From contig JALGZR010000072.1 in assembly GCA_025774805.1 (NCBI GenBank), positions 1 through 20,118 of the forward strand: a DNA stretch of 20,118 bases, written 5' to 3'. This stretch comes from a bacterium (GTDB taxonomy: Bacteria > ARS69). Below the pieces are notes generated by a model that saw only the letters and a program-made list of their open reading frames with translations, did no database searches and had not been told where the DNA came from. Shown in pieces: positions 6,260-17,974 of the stretch. Positions within the stretch are counted from its first letter, which is position 1. Every line of letters begins with the position of its first letter. The position numbers and the translations under genes were made by a program.

Positions 6260-8612
6260 CGGTCCGATCGAGCGCGCCTACGGCGTGATCCTTCTCGCGA
6301 TCTTCGTCACGCTCGCGATCTCCTCGATGCGGGTCAAGAGCCCGACATTCGACGAGACGACGCACCTCGCCTCCGGAATCTCCTACGTGCAGACCGGGGA
6401 CTACCGGATGAACCCGGAGCACCCCGCCCTTCCCAAACGTCTGGCCGGCTGGGCCGCGACGGCCGCCGGCGCGCGGGTTCCGGCCGAATCGGAAGCCTGG
6501 GAAGAGGGCGAACAGTGGGACTTCGCCCGGGAGGTTCTCTACGAGGGCGATACGGACTGGCGTCGTATCGTCTTCGCGGGGCGGCTTCCGATGGTGATGA
6601 TCGGAGTCCTTCTCGGAGTCACGCTCTGGGTCTGGGCGCGGAGCCTGATCGGCGGCGGGGGAGCGGCCGTCGTGATCACGCTCTACGCGTTTTCGCCGAA
6701 CTTCCTCGCCCACACCCGTCTCGTCACCACGGACGTTCCGCTCGCCTTCACGGTCGTGGGAACGGCGGCCTGCCTCTGGGCCGCCTGGAGATCGGGGAGG
6801 CTGTCGTGGATCGTGGCCGCGGCGGCCTTCGTCGGGCTCTCCATGGCGACGAAGTACTCCGCCTTCTCCTACGGACCCGCCTGGGTGTTGCTGATCCTGA
6901 TTCCCTCCGAGAACCGGCCCTTTCGCCGCTCCCTCGTTCATCTCGTCGTTTTCGCCGTCGCGGCGGTGGTGTTCACGCTGTTCCTCGTTTCCGCAAGCTA
7001 CGGCTTTGCATTCGAGTGGGTCACGATCCGCGAGCTCGGAATGGCGGGACGCGGCGTCACTCCGGACGAGATGGGCATCCTCCGCCGTGTCCCCTACGAG
7101 ATGTTGGCCCTCATTCCCTGGCCCTCCGCGGCCTTCGCGGAGGGGTTGAAGGACGTCCTCCTCCACGTTTCCACGGGACACCCGGTGTATCTGGCGGGAA
7201 TGCGCGGGACGGAGGGGTGGTGGTGGTCCTCGCTGGTGACGCTGGGGGCAAAGACGCCGCTCCCGCTCTTGATTCTCGTCGTCCTGGCGATCGTGCTTCT
7301 GGTGAGATCCCCACGGGGCCGGGGGCGCGAGCTCGCGTTTCTGATCGTTCCCGTCGTCCTGGTGCTCGCGACGAACATGGCGGCGAAGCTCGGTCTCGGC
7401 GTCCGGCACCTCCTGCCGATCTACCCGTTCCTGATGCTTCTGGTGGCCTGGCCGCTGCGCGGGGGAAGCTTCACGGGAGGGGCGTACTCCTATGGCCTCC
7501 TGATCGTGGCGCTGCTCTGGCACGCGGGCGGAACGCTGCGGGCGCATCCCCACTACCTCGCCTTCTTCAACGAGGCGGTCGGGGGAGCCGGCGGAGGCTA
7601 TCGCCTGCTCGGGGACTCGAATCTCGACTGGGGACAGGATCTCTCCCTCGCGACGCAGCGATTGCGGGAGCGGGGGGCGAGCGGAGCGATCCTCTGTTAC
7701 TTCGGAACGGCGAGCCCCTTCGGGGAAGACTTCGAGTGGCAGATTCTCCCGCCGGCGCAGAGGGAAAGGAACCGGGATCCCTGGTCGGTCCTTCCGACGG
7801 AAGGGGAGCAGTGGCTCGCGATGAGCGCGACGAACCGCCAGGGTGTCTTCTACCGTGGCACCGGTTCGCAGAAGCCCTACTCGTGGCTCGAGGACGTCGA
7901 GCCGGAGGAGACCGTGGGAGGCTCGATCTTTCTCTATGAGATCTCGAACGAGGCCGCGGTGCACAAGGGACTTCTCCAGCTCTACCGGCGACACGGTCTG
8001 AGAGAAGAGGCGGGGGCCGCGTTGCGGCGCATCGTCCGACGCTGGAAGTACGACGCCGAGGCACGGCGTCAGCTCGTGAGGTTCCACCTGGAACGGGGGG
8101 AGTCCGAGGAGGCCGAGAACATCCTCTTCGCCATGCCGAATCCCGACCCGAGCGACGCCATCTGGCTCGCCGACATCCGGCTTCAGCGCGGTGACATCGA
8201 GGGCTCGATCGGCATCCTCGAGGGGACGATCAAGATGTTCCCCGACGATCACGAGTCGAAGAACGCCTTTGCGTGGTTCCTTCAGGACATCGAGCGCGAT
8301 CTGCCGAGGGCCCTGTCCATGATCGACGAGGCGCTTCGATGGGCCCCGGAGGATCCCTACTACCGGGACACGAAGGGGATGGTGCTTCTGAAGCTCGAGG
8401 AGCCGGACGCGGCGCTCGCGGAGTTCGACGCCGCCTTGGCCGCTCCGGAGGGGGACCTGCCGGCCATCCGCTGGCACCGGGTCTGGGCCCTGCGCGCGGC
8501 CGGTCGAAACTCCGAGGCGATTGCGGAAGCCAAGGCCCTCCGGGCCCGGGAAGAAGCGACGGTGGAGCTGCTCGAGGAGGTTGAGGCCTGGCTCTACGAC
8601 ATCGGGGAGTGA
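6249..8612 (+). CDS. GT-C membrane glycosyltransferase (ArnT/PMT-like) with C-terminal TPR domain
   Basis: A 787-residue polytopic protein. After the first membrane segment (about 11-27) comes a loop with FDETTH (Asp35-Glu36) and NPEHPALPKRL (55-65). This is the acidic pair and HP-x-L motif of GT39/ArnT-type enzymes, which take sugar from a polyprenyl phosphate outside the membrane. About ten hydrophobic segments run to about residue 440. A soluble region follows, and residues about 565-787 are helical repeats of TPR type (for example near 690-740: GMVLLKLEEPDAALAEFDAA). The TPR tail is expected in the periplasm and may bind partners. The ATG at 6249 has AAAGGA eight bases upstream and overlaps the GT2 stop; a GTG at 6231 in the same frame is less likely. 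The acceptor is unknown. Confidence 0.8.
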   Translation: MRRSGPIERAYGVILLAIFVTLAISSMRVKSPTFDETTHLASGISYVQTGDYRMNPEHPALPKRLAGWAATAAGARVPAESEAWEEGEQWDFAREVLYEGDTDWRRIVFAGRLPMVMIGVLLGVTLWVWARSLIGGGGAAVVITLYAFSPNFLAHTRLVTTDVPLAFTVVGTAACLWAAWRSGRLSWIVAAAAFVGLSMATKYSAFSYGPAWVLLILIPSENRPFRRSLVHLVVFAVAAVVFTLFLVSASYGFAFEWVTIRELGMAGRGVTPDEMGILRRVPYEMLALIPWPSAAFAEGLKDVLLHVSTGHPVYLAGMRGTEGWWWSSLVTLGAKTPLPLLILVVLAIVLLVRSPRGRGRELAFLIVPVVLVLATNMAAKLGLGVRHLLPIYPFLMLLVAWPLRGGSFTGGAYSYGLLIVALLWHAGGTLRAHPHYLAFFNEAVGGAGGGYRLLGDSNLDWGQDLSLATQRLRERGASGAILCYFGTASPFGEDFEWQILPPAQRERNRDPWSVLPTEGEQWLAMSATNRQGVFYRGTGSQKPYSWLEDVEPEETVGGSIFLYEISNEAAVHKGLLQLYRRHGLREEAGAALRRIVRRWKYDAEARRQLVRFHLERGESEEAENILFAMPNPDPSDAIWLADIRLQRGDIEGSIGILEGTIKMFPDDHESKNAFAWFLQDIERDLPRALSMIDEALRWAPEDPYYRDTKGMVLLKLEEPDAALAEFDAALAAPEGDLPAIRWHRVWALRAAGRNSEAIAEAKALRAREEATVELLEEVEAWLYDIGE

Positions 8613-11296: not shown

Positions 11297-12577
11297 ATGA
11301 GGCCGCTCCTTCGCACAGCGTTCGCGGGCCTTCAGTTCCTCCTCGCAGCGCTCTCGCTCGGGGGGCGTCCTCCCGCGACGGGAGCCGAGCGTCCGGGGAG
11401 CTCCCCGGACCTCGTGCCGATGCCGACCCGTCTGATTCGCGCCCTCGTCGAGGACGGCTTCGAGAACCTGGCCGTTCGGCAACACGCGGGTTCGACCTCG
11501 GTCTGGTACGAGAATCGATCGTACCGCGACGAGCTCGCCGCCCTCGGAAGGGTGGCCTTCCTCGCCGCGTCCGACGTCCCCCCCGAAGGGCACCTCGAGC
11601 TCATCCCGCAGAACCGTGGTGTTCCTCTTCTCTCGGTCGCCGCCGCCGCGGCGGACTGGCTGGCCTTTCTCCGAGGAGAGAGGCCCGCCGGCTGGTTTCG
11701 AGAGAGGCTCACCGTTCGAGCCGCCGACGGCGGGCCGGAGTCGATCCGCGCCGGCTCCCCACCGCGCGAACACCTGTCGTTCCGGAGAACGGACGTTCGC
11801 GTCCGCCCGCTCTTCAACTTCGAGCTCGGCAGCTCGTTCGATCCGTTTCGCTCCGAGTTCCAGATCGCGCCCGAAGCCGTGATGGCTCCGCTTCCCGGAA
11901 CTCTGCTCTCGGCTCAGGTGATCGTTCAGGTCGACAACGACCTGGACCGGAACGCGGCCCGAGTCTCCCCGGGGCGGTCGACCGTGTCGTGGGGGGGGTG
12001 GCTGCCGGGCGGGTGGCTCGCCGCTCTGAGCGGAGGGTACTTCTCCGGCGACCGGTACGGTCTGGCGGGAGAGACCGGCAAGCTCCTCTGGTCCGGAGGG
12101 CTGGAAGTGACGGCGGGGGGCGATCTCAGCGGGCTGCTGGAGTTCACGGAGGAGACCACTCGATACTCCGACCCGGAAACCTGGTCGGCGTTTCTCGGCC
12201 TGACGCACCGATTGCGGGGGGTCGATCTCGAAACGTCGGTGAAGGCGGCGCGATTCATGGAGCAGGAGCTCGGAGTGCGCCTCGACGTCGCTCGACGCTT
12301 CGGAGAGGTCGAGGTGGGTTTCTTCGGCATCAAGACGGAACAGGATGACCTGGTCGGGCTCCTCCTGAGGTTGCCGTTGCCGGTGGAACGATGGTCGAGG
12401 CCGTCGCGCCTCCGACTGACGACGGTCCCGGCCTTTCCCTTCGAGTACCGGGACTCGGTCGCCGACGTGGGGCGCCAGGTCTCTCTGTTCGACAACCTCG
12501 ATCGCCTTCGCAAGAGACTGTACCCGACCTTCCTTTGGAACAACCTAGAGGATGTCCGAAGTGCCGTTCACCATTGA
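11297..12577 (+). CDS. YjbH-like outer-membrane exopolysaccharide protein, middle plus C-terminal portion
   Basis: A 426-residue exported protein (signal peptide about 1-30). Compared from memory with E. coli YjbH (about 700 residues), it matches the second half. Residues 54-127 (GFENLAV through VWYENRSYRDEL to FLRGE) correspond to the YjbH soluble module with KYRDSREGIIRANR and KNHLAGE. Residues 166-300 correspond to the barrel strands, and the end (LDVARRFGEVEVG near 355, then GRQVSLFDNLDR) corresponds to LEIAKRF and GRKFQLYDMTSDR. YjbH-type proteins are beta-barrel outer-membrane proteins tied to exopolysaccharide production. The ATG has GAGGAG ten bases upstream; earlier in-frame codons lack signal-peptide character. 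The expected YjbH N-terminal barrel half is absent here but is encoded by the next gene, which overlaps this one by 26 bases. Confidence 0.75.
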   Translation: MRPLLRTAFAGLQFLLAALSLGGRPPATGAERPGSSPDLVPMPTRLIRALVEDGFENLAVRQHAGSTSVWYENRSYRDELAALGRVAFLAASDVPPEGHLELIPQNRGVPLLSVAAAAADWLAFLRGERPAGWFRERLTVRAADGGPESIRAGSPPREHLSFRRTDVRVRPLFNFELGSSFDPFRSEFQIAPEAVMAPLPGTLLSAQVIVQVDNDLDRNAARVSPGRSTVSWGGWLPGGWLAALSGGYFSGDRYGLAGETGKLLWSGGLEVTAGGDLSGLLEFTEETTRYSDPETWSAFLGLTHRLRGVDLETSVKAARFMEQELGVRLDVARRFGEVEVGFFGIKTEQDDLVGLLLRLPLPVERWSRPSRLRLTTVPAFPFEYRDSVADVGRQVSLFDNLDRLRKRLYPTFLWNNLEDVRSAVHH

Positions 12578-13307
12578 GGAGACGGGCCGGAGGCTCCGCG
12601 GAGGCGTCGCGGTGTCGCTGCTTCTGGTGCTTCCGGGCGCGGGCCGGGCGTCCGGGGACGAGCCGACCGTGTCCGGCTTCTCCCTGAACGGAACCACGGG
12701 GCTCGCCAACACTCCGACTGCGGAGATCTTGCCGGATCGGTCTTTCCGAATCGGAGTCGCCGTCATCGACGAGAAATGGGCCTACAAAGAACGGGGAAGA
12801 GCGGACAACGAGATCTACTTCGTGTCCGTGGGATTCCTGCCCCGCATCGAGGTGTCCGTCCGGGCGACCGCCTTCCGGGAAGTGCCCTTCCCCCGGGACA
12901 GCGGCGTTCCCAGCGTGGATCGCATGGGCAGTGCGCGGTTGCTCGTGCTCGAGGAGGGGAGATTGCCGGCTCTGGCGGTCGGAATCGACGACGCTCGAGG
13001 GACCCGCCTGTTTCACGCACTGTATATCGTTGCCACGAAGTCCGTTCTGAAAACGGAGACGGTTCGGGCGCGGATCTCGGCAGGGTACGGATCGAAGGCG
13101 CTCGACGCCCGGGGCCACGTGCTGGACGGGTTCTTCGGGGGGACGGAGCTCACGGTCTCCGATCGCGGCTCGTTTCTGCTTGACTATGACACCGAGAAAG
13201 TCAATGCTGGTATTCGTTTCCGAGTGCTCGGCCGGGTAGGCTTGCACGCGGCGCTCCTGCACCTGGACACCCTCTCCGGGGGAGTTGACTGGACGCAGGG
13301 GTTGTGA
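12552..13307 (+). CDS. YjbH-like outer-membrane protein, N-terminal portion
   Basis: A 251-residue protein that resembles the first part of YjbH. GTTGLANTPTAEILPD (47-62) matches the YjbH start block GVGLLQTPTARMAREG. It is followed by alternating strand patterns (EIYFVSVGFLPRIEVSVRAT) and AVGIDDARGTRLFHALYIVATK, which matches AVGARDIGGTGLFDAEYLVASK. It has its own signal peptide (about 17-35). The ATG at 12552 has GAGG almost touching it; a GTG at 12561 would have GAGGA at a normal eight-base distance and may be the true start. Either start lies inside the end of the preceding gene, so translation is probably coupled. No downstream C-terminal half follows: the protein stops after about one barrel half. 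The two products probably assemble together, or are two separate smaller barrels. Confidence 0.72.
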   Translation: MSEVPFTIEETGRRLRGGVAVSLLLVLPGAGRASGDEPTVSGFSLNGTTGLANTPTAEILPDRSFRIGVAVIDEKWAYKERGRADNEIYFVSVGFLPRIEVSVRATAFREVPFPRDSGVPSVDRMGSARLLVLEEGRLPALAVGIDDARGTRLFHALYIVATKSVLKTETVRARISAGYGSKALDARGHVLDGFFGGTELTVSDRGSFLLDYDTEKVNAGIRFRVLGRVGLHAALLHLDTLSGGVDWTQGL

Positions 13308-13441: not shown

Positions 13442-13933
13442 ATGGTCAACGATCGTCGCTCCCTTCGCTCGAGAATGGCGCTACCGGTGCTCTTTCTCGC
13501 CCTGATCGCGCTCGCCGGCGCCTCTCAGTGCTCGAAAGTCGACGACGGGGTTTCTTCGACGAACGAGGAACTCGACATCGACCAGCTTCTGCGCGATGAG
13601 CTTCTCCAGGGGGAGCTTCTCGATGACGAGGTTCTCATCGAGCAGCTCTTCAACGATGAACCTCTGCACGATCAGCTTCGAAGCGCCCCGCCCAGGGACG
13701 ACCACAACCCACTCTGGGTCTGCCTCCATGATTGTCTGAGGGAGGCGCACGACGCACTGCGCGCGGAATCTCAACTGCACCGACAGAACGTGCGCGACTG
13801 TCGTGGAGACCCGGAGTGCCTTCGAGCCGAGAATCAGCGCCACGCCGCGGCCGTGAGGGCGATCATCCGAGAACTCACCCACTGCATCTGGGGTTGCCTG
13901 CATACCCAGGGAGAAGGGGCGGGCGGTCAGTAG
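13442..13933 (+). CDS. Small exported protein with acidic 5-residue repeats and twin CX3C helical hairpin
   Basis: A 163-residue protein I do not recognise. The N-terminus has basic residues and a hydrophobic segment (13-28) ending in ASQC (Cys30); the Gln before Cys makes this a poor lipobox, so signal peptidase I or II are both possible. Residues 42-81 are eight degenerate repeats of five residues, consensus [D/E]-[E/Q]-L-L-x. Residues 92-154 are helical with Cys94-x3-Cys98 near the start, Cys120-x5-Cys126 at the probable turn and Cys148-x3-Cys152 near the end. This spacing suggests two antiparallel helices stapled by disulphides, as in alpha-hairpinin or twin-CXnC proteins. GAGGGA lies eight bases before the ATG. 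It follows the YjbH pair after 134 bases and faces the minus-strand cluster. Confidence 0.7.
   Translation: MVNDRRSLRSRMALPVLFLALIALAGASQCSKVDDGVSSTNEELDIDQLLRDELLQGELLDDEVLIEQLFNDEPLHDQLRSAPPRDDHNPLWVCLHDCLREAHDALRAESQLHRQNVRDCRGDPECLRAENQRHAAAVRAIIRELTHCIWGCLHTQGEGAGGQ
13565..13684 (+). repeat. Eight tandem 15-base units encoding 5-residue repeats
   Basis: The units read EELDI, DQLLR, DELLQ, GELLD, DEVLI, EQLFN, DEPLH and DQLRS. Position 1 is acidic in seven of eight, position 2 is Glu or Gln in all eight, and position 3 is Leu in six. At DNA level units 2-4 still share GAGCTTCTC-like cores, with CTT for Leu, which is unusual next to the CTC/CTG preferred elsewhere, suggesting fairly recent duplication. 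It is not a canonical pentapeptide repeat (A-D/N-L-x-x), because position 1 is charged rather than small. Confidence 0.75.
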
Positions 13934-14847: not shown

Positions 14848-16323
14848 TCACCACGCGCTCGTCAGGATCGCGCGCAGCGTGATACCCCCGCGCTCGCTCT
14901 TCTCCGACGCCTCGATCGGAGGCTCCCCGTCGCCGTCTCCCGTCTCCGGCTCACCGTCCTCCCGATCCCCGAACGGTGCGACGATTCGAGCGTCGAGGCG
15001 CAGGTGGGTACCGGGCCCGATCGGGAACCGCGCGAACGCGTCGGCCTGGAGCCCGTTCGTCGCGTCGAGTGCGAGAGACTCCCGATCGTGTACGAAGCGG
15101 AAGAAGAAGAACGGGAATACCGGGACCCGTTTCTTCCAGAAGAGATCCCCTCCGCTGCTCCACCACTCGAGGCGAGCGTCGAGACCGAGGTCGATCGATC
15201 TCCCGAACTCACCCTGCCACGAACCTCGGGCGTAGACCGCCGTCCAGTGCTGGCGGAGCCGCTCCAGACGGTAGCGGGTCGCCGTGAACACGTCCCAGAC
15301 CGTGAACGGCCAGACGTCGAGGAAGCTCGGATCGTTGCTGTGCAGCCACCGTCCCTCCCCTCCGAGGGCGAGACGGACCTCTCCGCGTTCGCGCCGGGTC
15401 CCCCATCGCCACCCGAGCTCCGTCCCGCCGTGATAGGAGCGGAGGTCCCTCGCTCGCCCGTAGACCGTGCCGCCGAGAGCCATTTCCGCTCCGAGGACCG
15501 TACGCCCCACGAACGTCCGGAGATCGAGGCGGGGATCGTCCGTGCGCTCGACGTCGACCTCGGCCCGCAGGCGCATGACGTCGATCACGTTGTACCAGTC
15601 GGACCGGTGCTTCCGCCCGAGCACCTGCTGGACCTCGCCACCGCCGCGGAACCGCAATCCTCGGATGGGACGGGACCGGGCCTCGATGGCGGCGTTCGCG
15701 TCCCGGTACGGAAACGGAAAGAAGAACGTGGTCCCCCGCACCGTCTGCCGGAGGTCCGTCCGTGACTCCCGGACCCAGGTTCGCCAGCGCAAGCTCTCGA
15801 GCAGACCCCCGGAGCCCCGGAGCTCGAGCCCCGCCTCGTAGGGCCGGGACATGCCGATGAGCAGTCGAAGGTCTCCGCGCTCGTCGCGTGCGGCGAGCAG
15901 CAAGGCGTGGTGCCCCACGTCCCGCTCCCCGTCGAGGACGTCCTCCTCCTCGTGGACCTCCCTCTGCGCGAAGTCGATGCGATCCCTTCCGTGCCGCCAC
16001 CCGGCCCAGATTCGCCCCGTCCGCACGAGGGCGGCCCATCGCACGTTCCAGAGGCTGAAGTTCTGGAACTCGGGATCCCGCTCGTAGTGATACAGCTCCC
16101 GGTACTCGCCGAGAGCCCGGACGGCGCCCCGTTCCGGCAAGGTCTCCGGGAAGACGGCGAGGGGGTCGGACGTTCCCAGAATCGTGTCGATGCGCGGCAA
16201 ATCGAAGGCCCGGCACACGGGGGGGGAGCCGCCCCCGGCGACTCCCCCGATCAGAATCGCTCCCGCGAGAACGAACGTCTTCCGCCCCGCTACCACCCCG
16301 CGTTGTCGCGAATCGTTTCCCAC
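14848..16323 (-). CDS. Predicted outer-membrane beta-barrel protein, unknown function
   Basis: A 491-residue protein with an N-terminal hydrophobic segment (about 14-30; likely cleavage near CRA-FD, about residue 39). The mature part has many alternating hydrophobic/polar stretches rich in Arg, Trp, Tyr and Gly (for example LRFRGGGEVQQVLG and GGTELGWRWGTRRERGEVRLALGG), as in barrel strands with turns. It ends in ITLRAILTSAW, an alternating last strand with a terminal aromatic residue, as in the signal recognised by the BAM complex. An acidic Glu/Gly/Asp-rich loop lies about 35 residues from the end. I cannot name a family; porin or export channel are guesses. The GTG at 16323 overlaps the lipoprotein stop by 34 bases, and a GTG at 16296 would reduce this to 7; neither has a clear ribosome site, so coupling to the upstream gene is likely. 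Confidence 0.65.
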   Translation of the reverse strand: MGNDSRQRGVVAGRKTFVLAGAILIGGVAGGGSPPVCRAFDLPRIDTILGTSDPLAVFPETLPERGAVRALGEYRELYHYERDPEFQNFSLWNVRWAALVRTGRIWAGWRHGRDRIDFAQREVHEEEDVLDGERDVGHHALLLAARDERGDLRLLIGMSRPYEAGLELRGSGGLLESLRWRTWVRESRTDLRQTVRGTTFFFPFPYRDANAAIEARSRPIRGLRFRGGGEVQQVLGRKHRSDWYNVIDVMRLRAEVDVERTDDPRLDLRTFVGRTVLGAEMALGGTVYGRARDLRSYHGGTELGWRWGTRRERGEVRLALGGEGRWLHSNDPSFLDVWPFTVWDVFTATRYRLERLRQHWTAVYARGSWQGEFGRSIDLGLDARLEWWSSGGDLFWKKRVPVFPFFFFRFVHDRESLALDATNGLQADAFARFPIGPGTHLRLDARIVAPFGDREDGEPETGDGDGEPPIEASEKSERGGITLRAILTSAW

Positions 16324-17897
16324 GTGGCCCGAGTCGCGCCGGGGAAGAGCCCGCCGAGCGTGTAATTGTCGAAGTAGGGGATCTTCACCACATCGAGGTC
16401 GATGACGGAACCGCCCGGACCGTCGAGGAACTCGATGGGATTGACACTGTAGTTGATGTCCAGACGGCGGGTCTCGAAGACGTCGCTCCGCCAGGTCTCG
16501 ACCCCGGTCTCGCAGTCGATGACGCTGTGAGGCACTCCGTAGGGCGAGCCAAAGGTGACGTCGAGGGTGGTGTCGGCCTCGACCCAGCTCGCCGGCGGCC
16601 TGAACTGATGGAAAGGCAGCAGGGAATTCCAGTCCAGGGGCGCGTTACCGAGGAACCCGGCGAGATCCACCGTGATCTCGATGGGCCCGAACTCTCCGTC
16701 CTCCTGCACGTCGTAAGGGCCGGAGAGAATCTGATTCACCCAGTTCAAGACGTCCTCGATCGTCGTGAAGTTCTCCGCGAAGTTCGGCGGATCCGTCGCA
16801 TTCGCGATGTCTTGGTCGATGTCCGTGAGGTCGACGATCTTGATCACGTCGTTCATCTGGTCGTCGCTCTCGCCCTTGACCGCGGCGACACCCAGCGAGA
16901 GGAGCTCCCGGATGCGGCGCATGTCCGCGAGCACCCCGGCCAGACCACCCGTGCGCTGCCGCAGGAAATCGGGCCGCTGCTCGAGGTTGTACTGGATGAT
17001 CGCCACGCCGACGGAGTCCTTCGCCGCCGAGCCGGGATCCTGTCCGTAGTTGATCGAGATGCGGCGGCTCGAGTCGGCGGAGACGAGCTCGAACTCCCCG
17101 TCCCTCTCGCACGTCGGGATGTCGTTCATCGTGTCGATCCAGCCGTACGTACCGTCCGGTCCGGGTAACCCGAGATCGTAGGCGGTGAGAAGGCGGAACG
17201 CGGCCCGCGCGGCGTGGGTCGCCGCGTGAAACGCGTAGATCTCCCCGATGTCGATCTCGTAGCTCTCGTCCTCGACGGTCAGGTTGAACACGGGCCCGCC
17301 GTCCGCCTCCGCCTGCTCCAGATGAGTGATCGACTCCGTGAGGGCCGGAATCACGACGCTGTCGATGAGCGCCTGAGCTCGGGCCACGGTCAGGCTCGAG
17401 GGGATCGCCCGCATCGACCGTCGCATCAGCTCCCGCGGCGCCGTGGCGAGAAGCGTGAACTGGTTTCGGAGGATTGGAGATCCCAGTCGGACAAAGAGGC
17501 CGCCGGAGCTGCTACGGCCGCTCGTCGAGTCCGAGTAGTCGATGAGGTCGTCGAGAAACGCCCACAGATCGGCGTCGTAGTTGATCTCGAGGACCTCCAG
17601 GATTCCGACACCCAGGTGGGCAATGCGATTGGACGGGTCCGCGGCCAAGATCGCGTCGAATCCGTTGCGGATCACCGTGTAGCGTCTCGGACGGATGTCG
17701 TCCTCGTCGGGATCGTCCGGGATGTTCGCGAGCGAATCGGCGAGAGCCTGCATGAGCGCCACGGCGTCGGGGAGATCCTGGACCACGACCGGACCGTCGT
17801 CGTCCCCGCAGCCGGTCAGCAGAGCGGACGCTCCGAGTCCCAGAGCGAGCATGAGAACCAGGGCCGCGCGGGAGCGGCCGGGAAGGAGCGAGCGCAT
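16290..17897 (-). CDS. Large lipoprotein of unknown function, partner of the barrel gene
   Basis: A 535-residue protein with a clear lipoprotein signal: Arg-rich start, hydrophobic core and lipobox LLTGC (Cys30), then GDDDG. The Asp residues begin at position +3 rather than +2, so by the enteric rule the outer membrane is the likely site. The mature part is acidic. Residues about 40-260 are helical with a weak TPR-like look (DALAADP-type turns, HLGVGILEVLEI), and the C-terminal part is richer in beta patterns. No enzyme motif was seen. The ATG at 17897 has AGGAGG eight bases upstream, which selects it over the in-frame upstream codon at 17966. A promoter lies at 17975-18004. The end overlaps the barrel gene, so a lipoprotein-plus-barrel outer-membrane pair is inferred. 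Confidence 0.72.
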   Translation of the reverse strand: MRSLLPGRSRAALVLMLALGLGASALLTGCGDDDGPVVVQDLPDAVALMQALADSLANIPDDPDEDDIRPRRYTVIRNGFDAILAADPSNRIAHLGVGILEVLEINYDADLWAFLDDLIDYSDSTSGRSSSGGLFVRLGSPILRNQFTLLATAPRELMRRSMRAIPSSLTVARAQALIDSVVIPALTESITHLEQAEADGGPVFNLTVEDESYEIDIGEIYAFHAATHAARAAFRLLTAYDLGLPGPDGTYGWIDTMNDIPTCERDGEFELVSADSSRRISINYGQDPGSAAKDSVGVAIIQYNLEQRPDFLRQRTGGLAGVLADMRRIRELLSLGVAAVKGESDDQMNDVIKIVDLTDIDQDIANATDPPNFAENFTTIEDVLNWVNQILSGPYDVQEDGEFGPIEITVDLAGFLGNAPLDWNSLLPFHQFRPPASWVEADTTLDVTFGSPYGVPHSVIDCETGVETWRSDVFETRRLDINYSVNPIEFLDGPGGSVIDLDVVKIPYFDNYTLGGLFPGATRATWETIRDNAGW

Positions 17898-17974
17898 CGG
17901 GAACGCCTCCTGGAACGTGATCGAAGAGCCGGCGGGGAGCCGGCGCAGAGGATCCGCGGGGGCCACACGCGCGG

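Follow-up and report, generated by a model that had tools for sequence, protein, structure and literature searches.

GfcD of Escherichia coli was reportedly first described as a multi-barrel protein in a PNAS-era study. With YjbH it forms a family counted among the most widespread of the outer membrane (PMC11494523), and in E. coli these proteins are single chains with the order N-M-C. In the GfcD model, an N-terminal 12-strand barrel (N; residues 19 to 278) is followed by a periplasmic middle domain (M; 279 to 423) and a 13-strand C-terminal barrel (C; 424 to 698) that has a lateral opening and a C-terminal plug (PMC11494523). Limited proteolysis of GfcD produced two stable 30-kDa fragments (PMC8592465), which fits separable modules. 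GfcD has been linked to capsule export (PMC8592465, PMC11494523) and it has been suggested that what it exports may be a polysaccharide conjugate of protein or lipid, GfcA being a candidate (PMC8592465). Unfused forms have been glimpsed earlier as lone YjbH/GfcD C-terminal barrels near OPX genes, single-module relatives of which Table 1 of PMC9603273 counts two and three cases; that table describes no paired N gene, swapped order, permuted fusion or tailed partner of the kind reported here. Apart from these counts, our search of open-access portions of the literature returned no earlier split or permuted YjbH.

The gene pair and its family match

The window (the whole stretch of DNA analysed, 20,118 nucleotides) belongs to a fragmented draft genome of 284 contigs. 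Its gene pair resembles GfcD/YjbH of E. coli in that both modules match Pfam family PF06082 and together are predicted to provide both barrels as well as the periplasmic middle domain (PMC11494523). It differs in that these parts are divided over two chains, M+C followed by N, and whereas gfcB and gfcC adjoin gfcD in E. coli, an HxQG-tailed partner gene is found here instead. The pair is laid out as follows.

11297..12577, + strand: gene A, the M+C protein (P0001, 426 aa), with signal peptide, periplasmic middle domain, C-terminal barrel and C-terminal tail segment; PF06082 275-453; recurs elsewhere, with full-length alignment to M+C proteins of other phyla
11429..11776, + strand: middle (M) alpha/beta periplasmic domain of gene A, residues ~45-160; Pfam match starting at residue 45, modelled by AF2 as helices with short strands, boundaries approximate
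11786..12457, + strand: C barrel of gene A, residues ~164-387, with ~13 strands from AF2 secondary structure (pLDDT 63 overall; strand count approximate)
12458..12574, + strand: C-terminal segment of gene A (GRQVSLFDN to the end), at the plug position of GfcD; position conserved in alignments, low-confidence helices in the AF2 model
12552..13307, + strand: gene B, the N protein (P0002, 251 aa), with signal peptide and a predicted 12-strand N-terminal barrel; PF06082 6-140, AF2 model pLDDT 48, best PDB fold match FapF
12552..12577, + strand: overlap of genes A and B, 26 bases, from the ORF coordinates

The first-pass annotation had read this pair as a YjbH split into two genes with its halves swapped, and had suggested a profile search against the family. 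In the Pfam search, residues 45 to 222 of gene A matched profile positions 275-453 (E = 6e-11) and residues 47 to 192 of gene B matched positions 6-140 (E = 3e-16); both scores exceed the curated cut-off, and the profile regions covered do not overlap. The products therefore map to different parts of the family, the second aligning to the N-terminal part, and the reading of a swapped split stands. So do the 26-base overlap of the two frames and the motifs quoted for both products, which are all present. Each product begins with what looks, by eye, like a signal peptide. The barrel of gene A is unscored by Pfam past profile position 453; this part was assigned via alignment to relatives, a relative from genome G049 whose protein matches PF06082 278-598, and the low-confidence AF2 model. 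We consider it practically certain that gene A is the M+C part and gene B the N part of the GfcD/YjbH architecture, encoded as separate secreted proteins in swapped order. By analogy with GfcD (PMC11494523), the C-terminal segment of gene A may act as a plug.

An alternative GTG start of gene B at 12561 has better spacing from an AGAGG and would shrink the overlap to 17 bases; the A/B-type genes of four other loci (L142, L133, L135 and L137) likewise have short overlaps or gaps. A promoter and terminator scan gave no signal above chance. Downstream of gene B and the third gene described below, on the opposite strand, lie two genes that match nothing in Pfam at E values up to 1: 14848-16323 (-; 491 aa), which has a beta-rich look and is possibly an outer-membrane protein, and 16290-17966 (-; 558 aa).

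Both AF2 models are weak, with shallow input alignments (the window proteins and four related loci), and were used as consistency checks only. Gene A is modelled at low confidence as an alpha/beta domain, ~13 strands and C-terminal helices (pLDDT 63), and gene B, also at low confidence, as 12 strands (pLDDT 48). Among PDB structures the N model comes closest to FapF (5o65, 5o68), the 12-strand functional-amyloid secretion barrel of Pseudomonas, which exports a protein; the match is made via a low-confidence model at 11-14% identity, and we do not claim family membership for the N protein. Fold recognition published for the N-terminal half of GfcD is in agreement with this match (PMC9603273). 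For M+C, Foldseek with the model returned general porins only, at low TM-score, which is uninformative, and a PDB sequence search using the profile gave no meaningful match.

Recurrence and phylogeny of split and permuted forms

HMMs built from seven M+C and seven N sequences were run across the open frames of the collected loci, in which genes are mechanical ORF calls and genomes are mostly drafts; given the genome samples, first-look searches and cut-offs, the resulting counts are lower bounds on prevalence. A survey of related genomes had been suggested together with the profile search, and it reveals the same M+C-then-N order in many genomes, plus forms fused in the swapped order. Split M+C then N, at times with one intervening gene, occurs at 20 loci in 19 genomes (the window, L013, L118, L119, L122, L126, L128-L139, L142 and L148), and split N then M+C at two loci, L123 and L124, from two genomes of one genus. 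Permuted single-chain M-C-N proteins, which have short linkers between their modules (Pro-rich in L058), are encoded at ten loci, all in one phylum: eight are intact (L058, L143-L147, L149 and L150), L151 is truncated by a contig end and L152 is frame-broken. The canonical N-M-C order was found at L017, L021-L023 and L153-L155 as well as in E. coli. Counted by genome, M+C is present in 23 of 82 members of the G049 phylum (candidate division KSB1) and in 12 of 47 members of the G198 phylum. A Caldithrix sp. record (L077) has the gene order M+C, tailed protein, N, and in G108, a bin labelled Gemmatimonadetes, separate M+C and N genes are dispersed across contigs. The protein adjoining a lone M+C gene of this bin (L052, 101-1006 in reverse-oriented coordinates) has a C-terminal domain resembling a type IX secretion sorting domain.

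In the M+C tree all permuted fusions group in a single clade (support 100/100), as they do in the N tree (99/93). In both, the sister of this clade is the split locus L148, followed by the window and L142, and the whole group has support of 99/98 (M+C) and 97/99 (N). The fusions are nested among split pairs and are most simply explained by a single end-to-end fusion of adjacent M+C and N genes. Both trees have a weak root and several weak deep forks, and some rows have long branches; the split may represent either the ancestral unfused state of the family or a later fission. Pairwise M+C and N distances correlate across 28 non-canonical loci (Mantel r 0.87, 0 of 5000 permutations), as expected of co-inherited genes, with a contribution from shared species history. 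The natural splits and permuted fusions indicate separable barrel modules with no fixed chain order, each of which can be tested alone. The first-pass annotation also suggested that the products are two interacting barrels. This would suit the way AlphaFold builds GfcD (PMC11494523), the evolution of the two halves in step and the existence of natural M-C-N fusions; that the barrels pair physically is our inference.

A profile search of the window genome (G000) returned genes A and B again, along with a weaker, third match of N type on contig C31. This extra barrel gene (7564-7944, - strand, in L014) has an orthologue in G004 (contig C228; L016 1448-2269), and in both genomes it adjoins acetyl-CoA carboxylase alpha-type and DNA polymerase III alpha genes. 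Neither an M+C gene nor an HxQG tail was seen near it in L014 and L016, and it probably represents a separate stand-alone family. Further stand-alone N-type barrels accompanied by no M+C gene occur in other phyla (L019 3277-4089, L020 7716-8486, L018 7289-7939 and L056 6207-6863), the one in L056 directly downstream of an OPX-like gene.

The third gene and HxQG-tailed partners

A third gene, overlooked in the first-pass annotation, changes the likely function of the locus.

13442..13933, + strand: gene C, a 163-aa Cys-rich secreted, probably lipid-anchored partner; in other genomes, homologues immediately follow N or fused M-C-N
13721..13900, + strand: Cys domain of gene C (CxxxC, two central Cys, CxxxC); Cys columns invariant in alignment A6
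13901..13930, + strand: C-terminal HxQG tail of gene C (HTQGEGAGGQ), common to homologous and apparently unrelated partner proteins

Gene C begins with a hydrophobic signal ending in Cys and, judging from its sequence, is probably lipid-anchored. Partner proteins often have Q immediately ahead of the presumed lipidated Cys, an unusual residue for a lipobox. Gene C belongs to no Pfam or NCBIfam family. Its homologues adjoin N or M-C-N in G004 and in loci of the G198 phylum, with ends such as HHQGGG. KSB1-type loci have another kind of neighbour, a protein of 250-550 aa, often a clear lipoprotein, that ends H-[NDTY]-Q-G. In all, the partners make up five families, and the majority of partners end H-x-Q-G; profile comparison with the tails removed detected no homology among them beyond signal peptides, suggesting that the tail is what the machinery reads.

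The HxQG tail is present at 29 of 40 non-canonical loci, most commonly on one gene per locus. Near the barrels it occurs in 34 of 588 same-strand frames, versus 3 of 1481 elsewhere. This comparison serves as a guide only, as there is partial homology among the rows, a few of the frames are spurious and we had spotted the motif in the same loci before counting. At the other 11 loci the exact tail is missing nearby: contig ends truncate some of them, no neighbour is tailed at L133-L135, the partners of G285 and G108 end in the variants HSSGVGG and THDQ, and in G431 and G432 the partner is encoded elsewhere. The latter two partners were located by body sequence and then found to be tailed, and further partner copies in G496 are tailed as well. 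Several tailed paralogues can coexist, with six matches to the tailed Cys-type partner in G489. At L149 (3969-6014), four tandem Cys-rich HxQG paralogues directly follow the permuted M-C-N gene, and that genome has two further matches elsewhere.

Partners and barrels are inherited together. In the G198 phylum the genomes with the Cys partner and those with M+C are exactly the same, 12 of 47, a coincidence of probability 1.9e-11 if genomes were independent, which these are not. Full-length Ig-type partners occur in 11 genomes, all within the 23 that have M+C in the phylum of 82. Within the window's own family, G000 and G004 have both N and the Cys partner, and G001-G003 have neither. A role of the tail as a genome-wide sorting tag is not supported: in the 1.17 Mb of G425, H.QG is no commoner at C-termini than scrambled motifs, and the local partner is the sole plausible tailed gene. 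GfcA and YjbE lack an HxQG tail.

Possible roles of the barrels and their partner

In the mechanism we propose, gene A would supply a periplasmic adaptor and a ~13-strand barrel and gene B a 12-strand barrel, the two being inserted and paired in the outer membrane; in one phylum, the adjacent M+C and N genes would have been fused end to end, giving the permuted M-C-N chain. Gene C, a small and probably lipid-anchored secreted protein, would be the dedicated substrate, whose HxQG tail would be read by the barrel pair before the protein is moved to or through the outer membrane. A lateral gate has been proposed in the C barrel of GfcD for a lipid-anchored sugar, and it would also suit a lipid-anchored protein. 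We give this reading as a whole, a split double barrel acting as a pair on a tailed, lipid-anchored cargo, about even odds (roughly 0.5), the cargo role included.

A tail conserved on proteins that otherwise vary usually marks a targeting signal. Its constancy here, together with the several tailed paralogues of some genomes, favours cargo over subunit. The resemblance of the N model, itself weak, to the polypeptide secretion barrel FapF counts for protein export. So does the distribution of the canonical partner GfcC (PF06251), which was not found in the window genome and was found in only one of 30 genomes searched. Counting against this reading are the 11 of 40 loci with no exact tail nearby, the single tailed gene in G425, the Q before the Cys and the low confidence of the AF2 models. 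The Slam surface-lipoprotein translocon (PMC9090332) is an outer-membrane barrel that delivers dedicated lipoproteins to the surface; we compare it for function only, and that system is not known to have a C-terminal HxQG tail. Conserved on partners that have no detectable homology, the tail is a candidate recognition signal and the partner a candidate substrate, through which the question of whether GfcD/YjbH proteins export polysaccharide, lipid or protein becomes directly testable. Tentatively, and with a chance somewhat short of even, the locus would belong to an undescribed outer-membrane system for protein export, present in several phyla, in which a split or permuted GfcD-derived two-barrel translocon recognises the HxQG tail on a dedicated (lipo)protein with a lineage-variable body.

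A possible, though rather doubtful, alternative is that the barrels form a split GfcD-like exporter of polysaccharide or glycolipid and that the HxQG protein is a stoichiometric accessory lipoprotein, its tail plugging or bracing the barrel like LptE in LptD. The homology of genes A and B to GfcD/YjbH and the tie of GfcD to capsule export (PMC8592465, PMC11494523) are in keeping with this, as are the usual single tailed gene per locus, that of G425 being alone in 1.17 Mb, and the glycosyltransferase genes beside the N gene of one bin (L053). However, a structural subunit would not be expected to have its body swapped between lineages for one of no detectable homology while the tail is kept, nor to come as six tailed paralogues in one genome, and 29 of the 30 genomes searched yielded no GfcC.

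We regard as improbable that the tail works independently of the barrels, in metal binding, anchoring or dimerisation, with gene linkage reflecting shared regulation only. From inspection of the sequence, a His-containing, Gly-rich tail near Cys pairs could bind metal, but the tail is also present on partners that have no Cys domains, and both the exact co-occurrence with M+C over 47 genomes and the restriction of the Ig-type partner to M+C genomes in a second phylum argue for a link to the barrels. Finally, a broken or misassembled fused YjbH, or two paralogues of one family part, could be suspected in a draft of 284 contigs but is extremely unlikely: paralogy is ruled out by the different profile regions of two products that each have their own start and signal-like stretch, and an assembly or frameshift artefact by recurrence of the layout in other genomes and phyla, with the same order in 20 split loci and ten permuted fusions.
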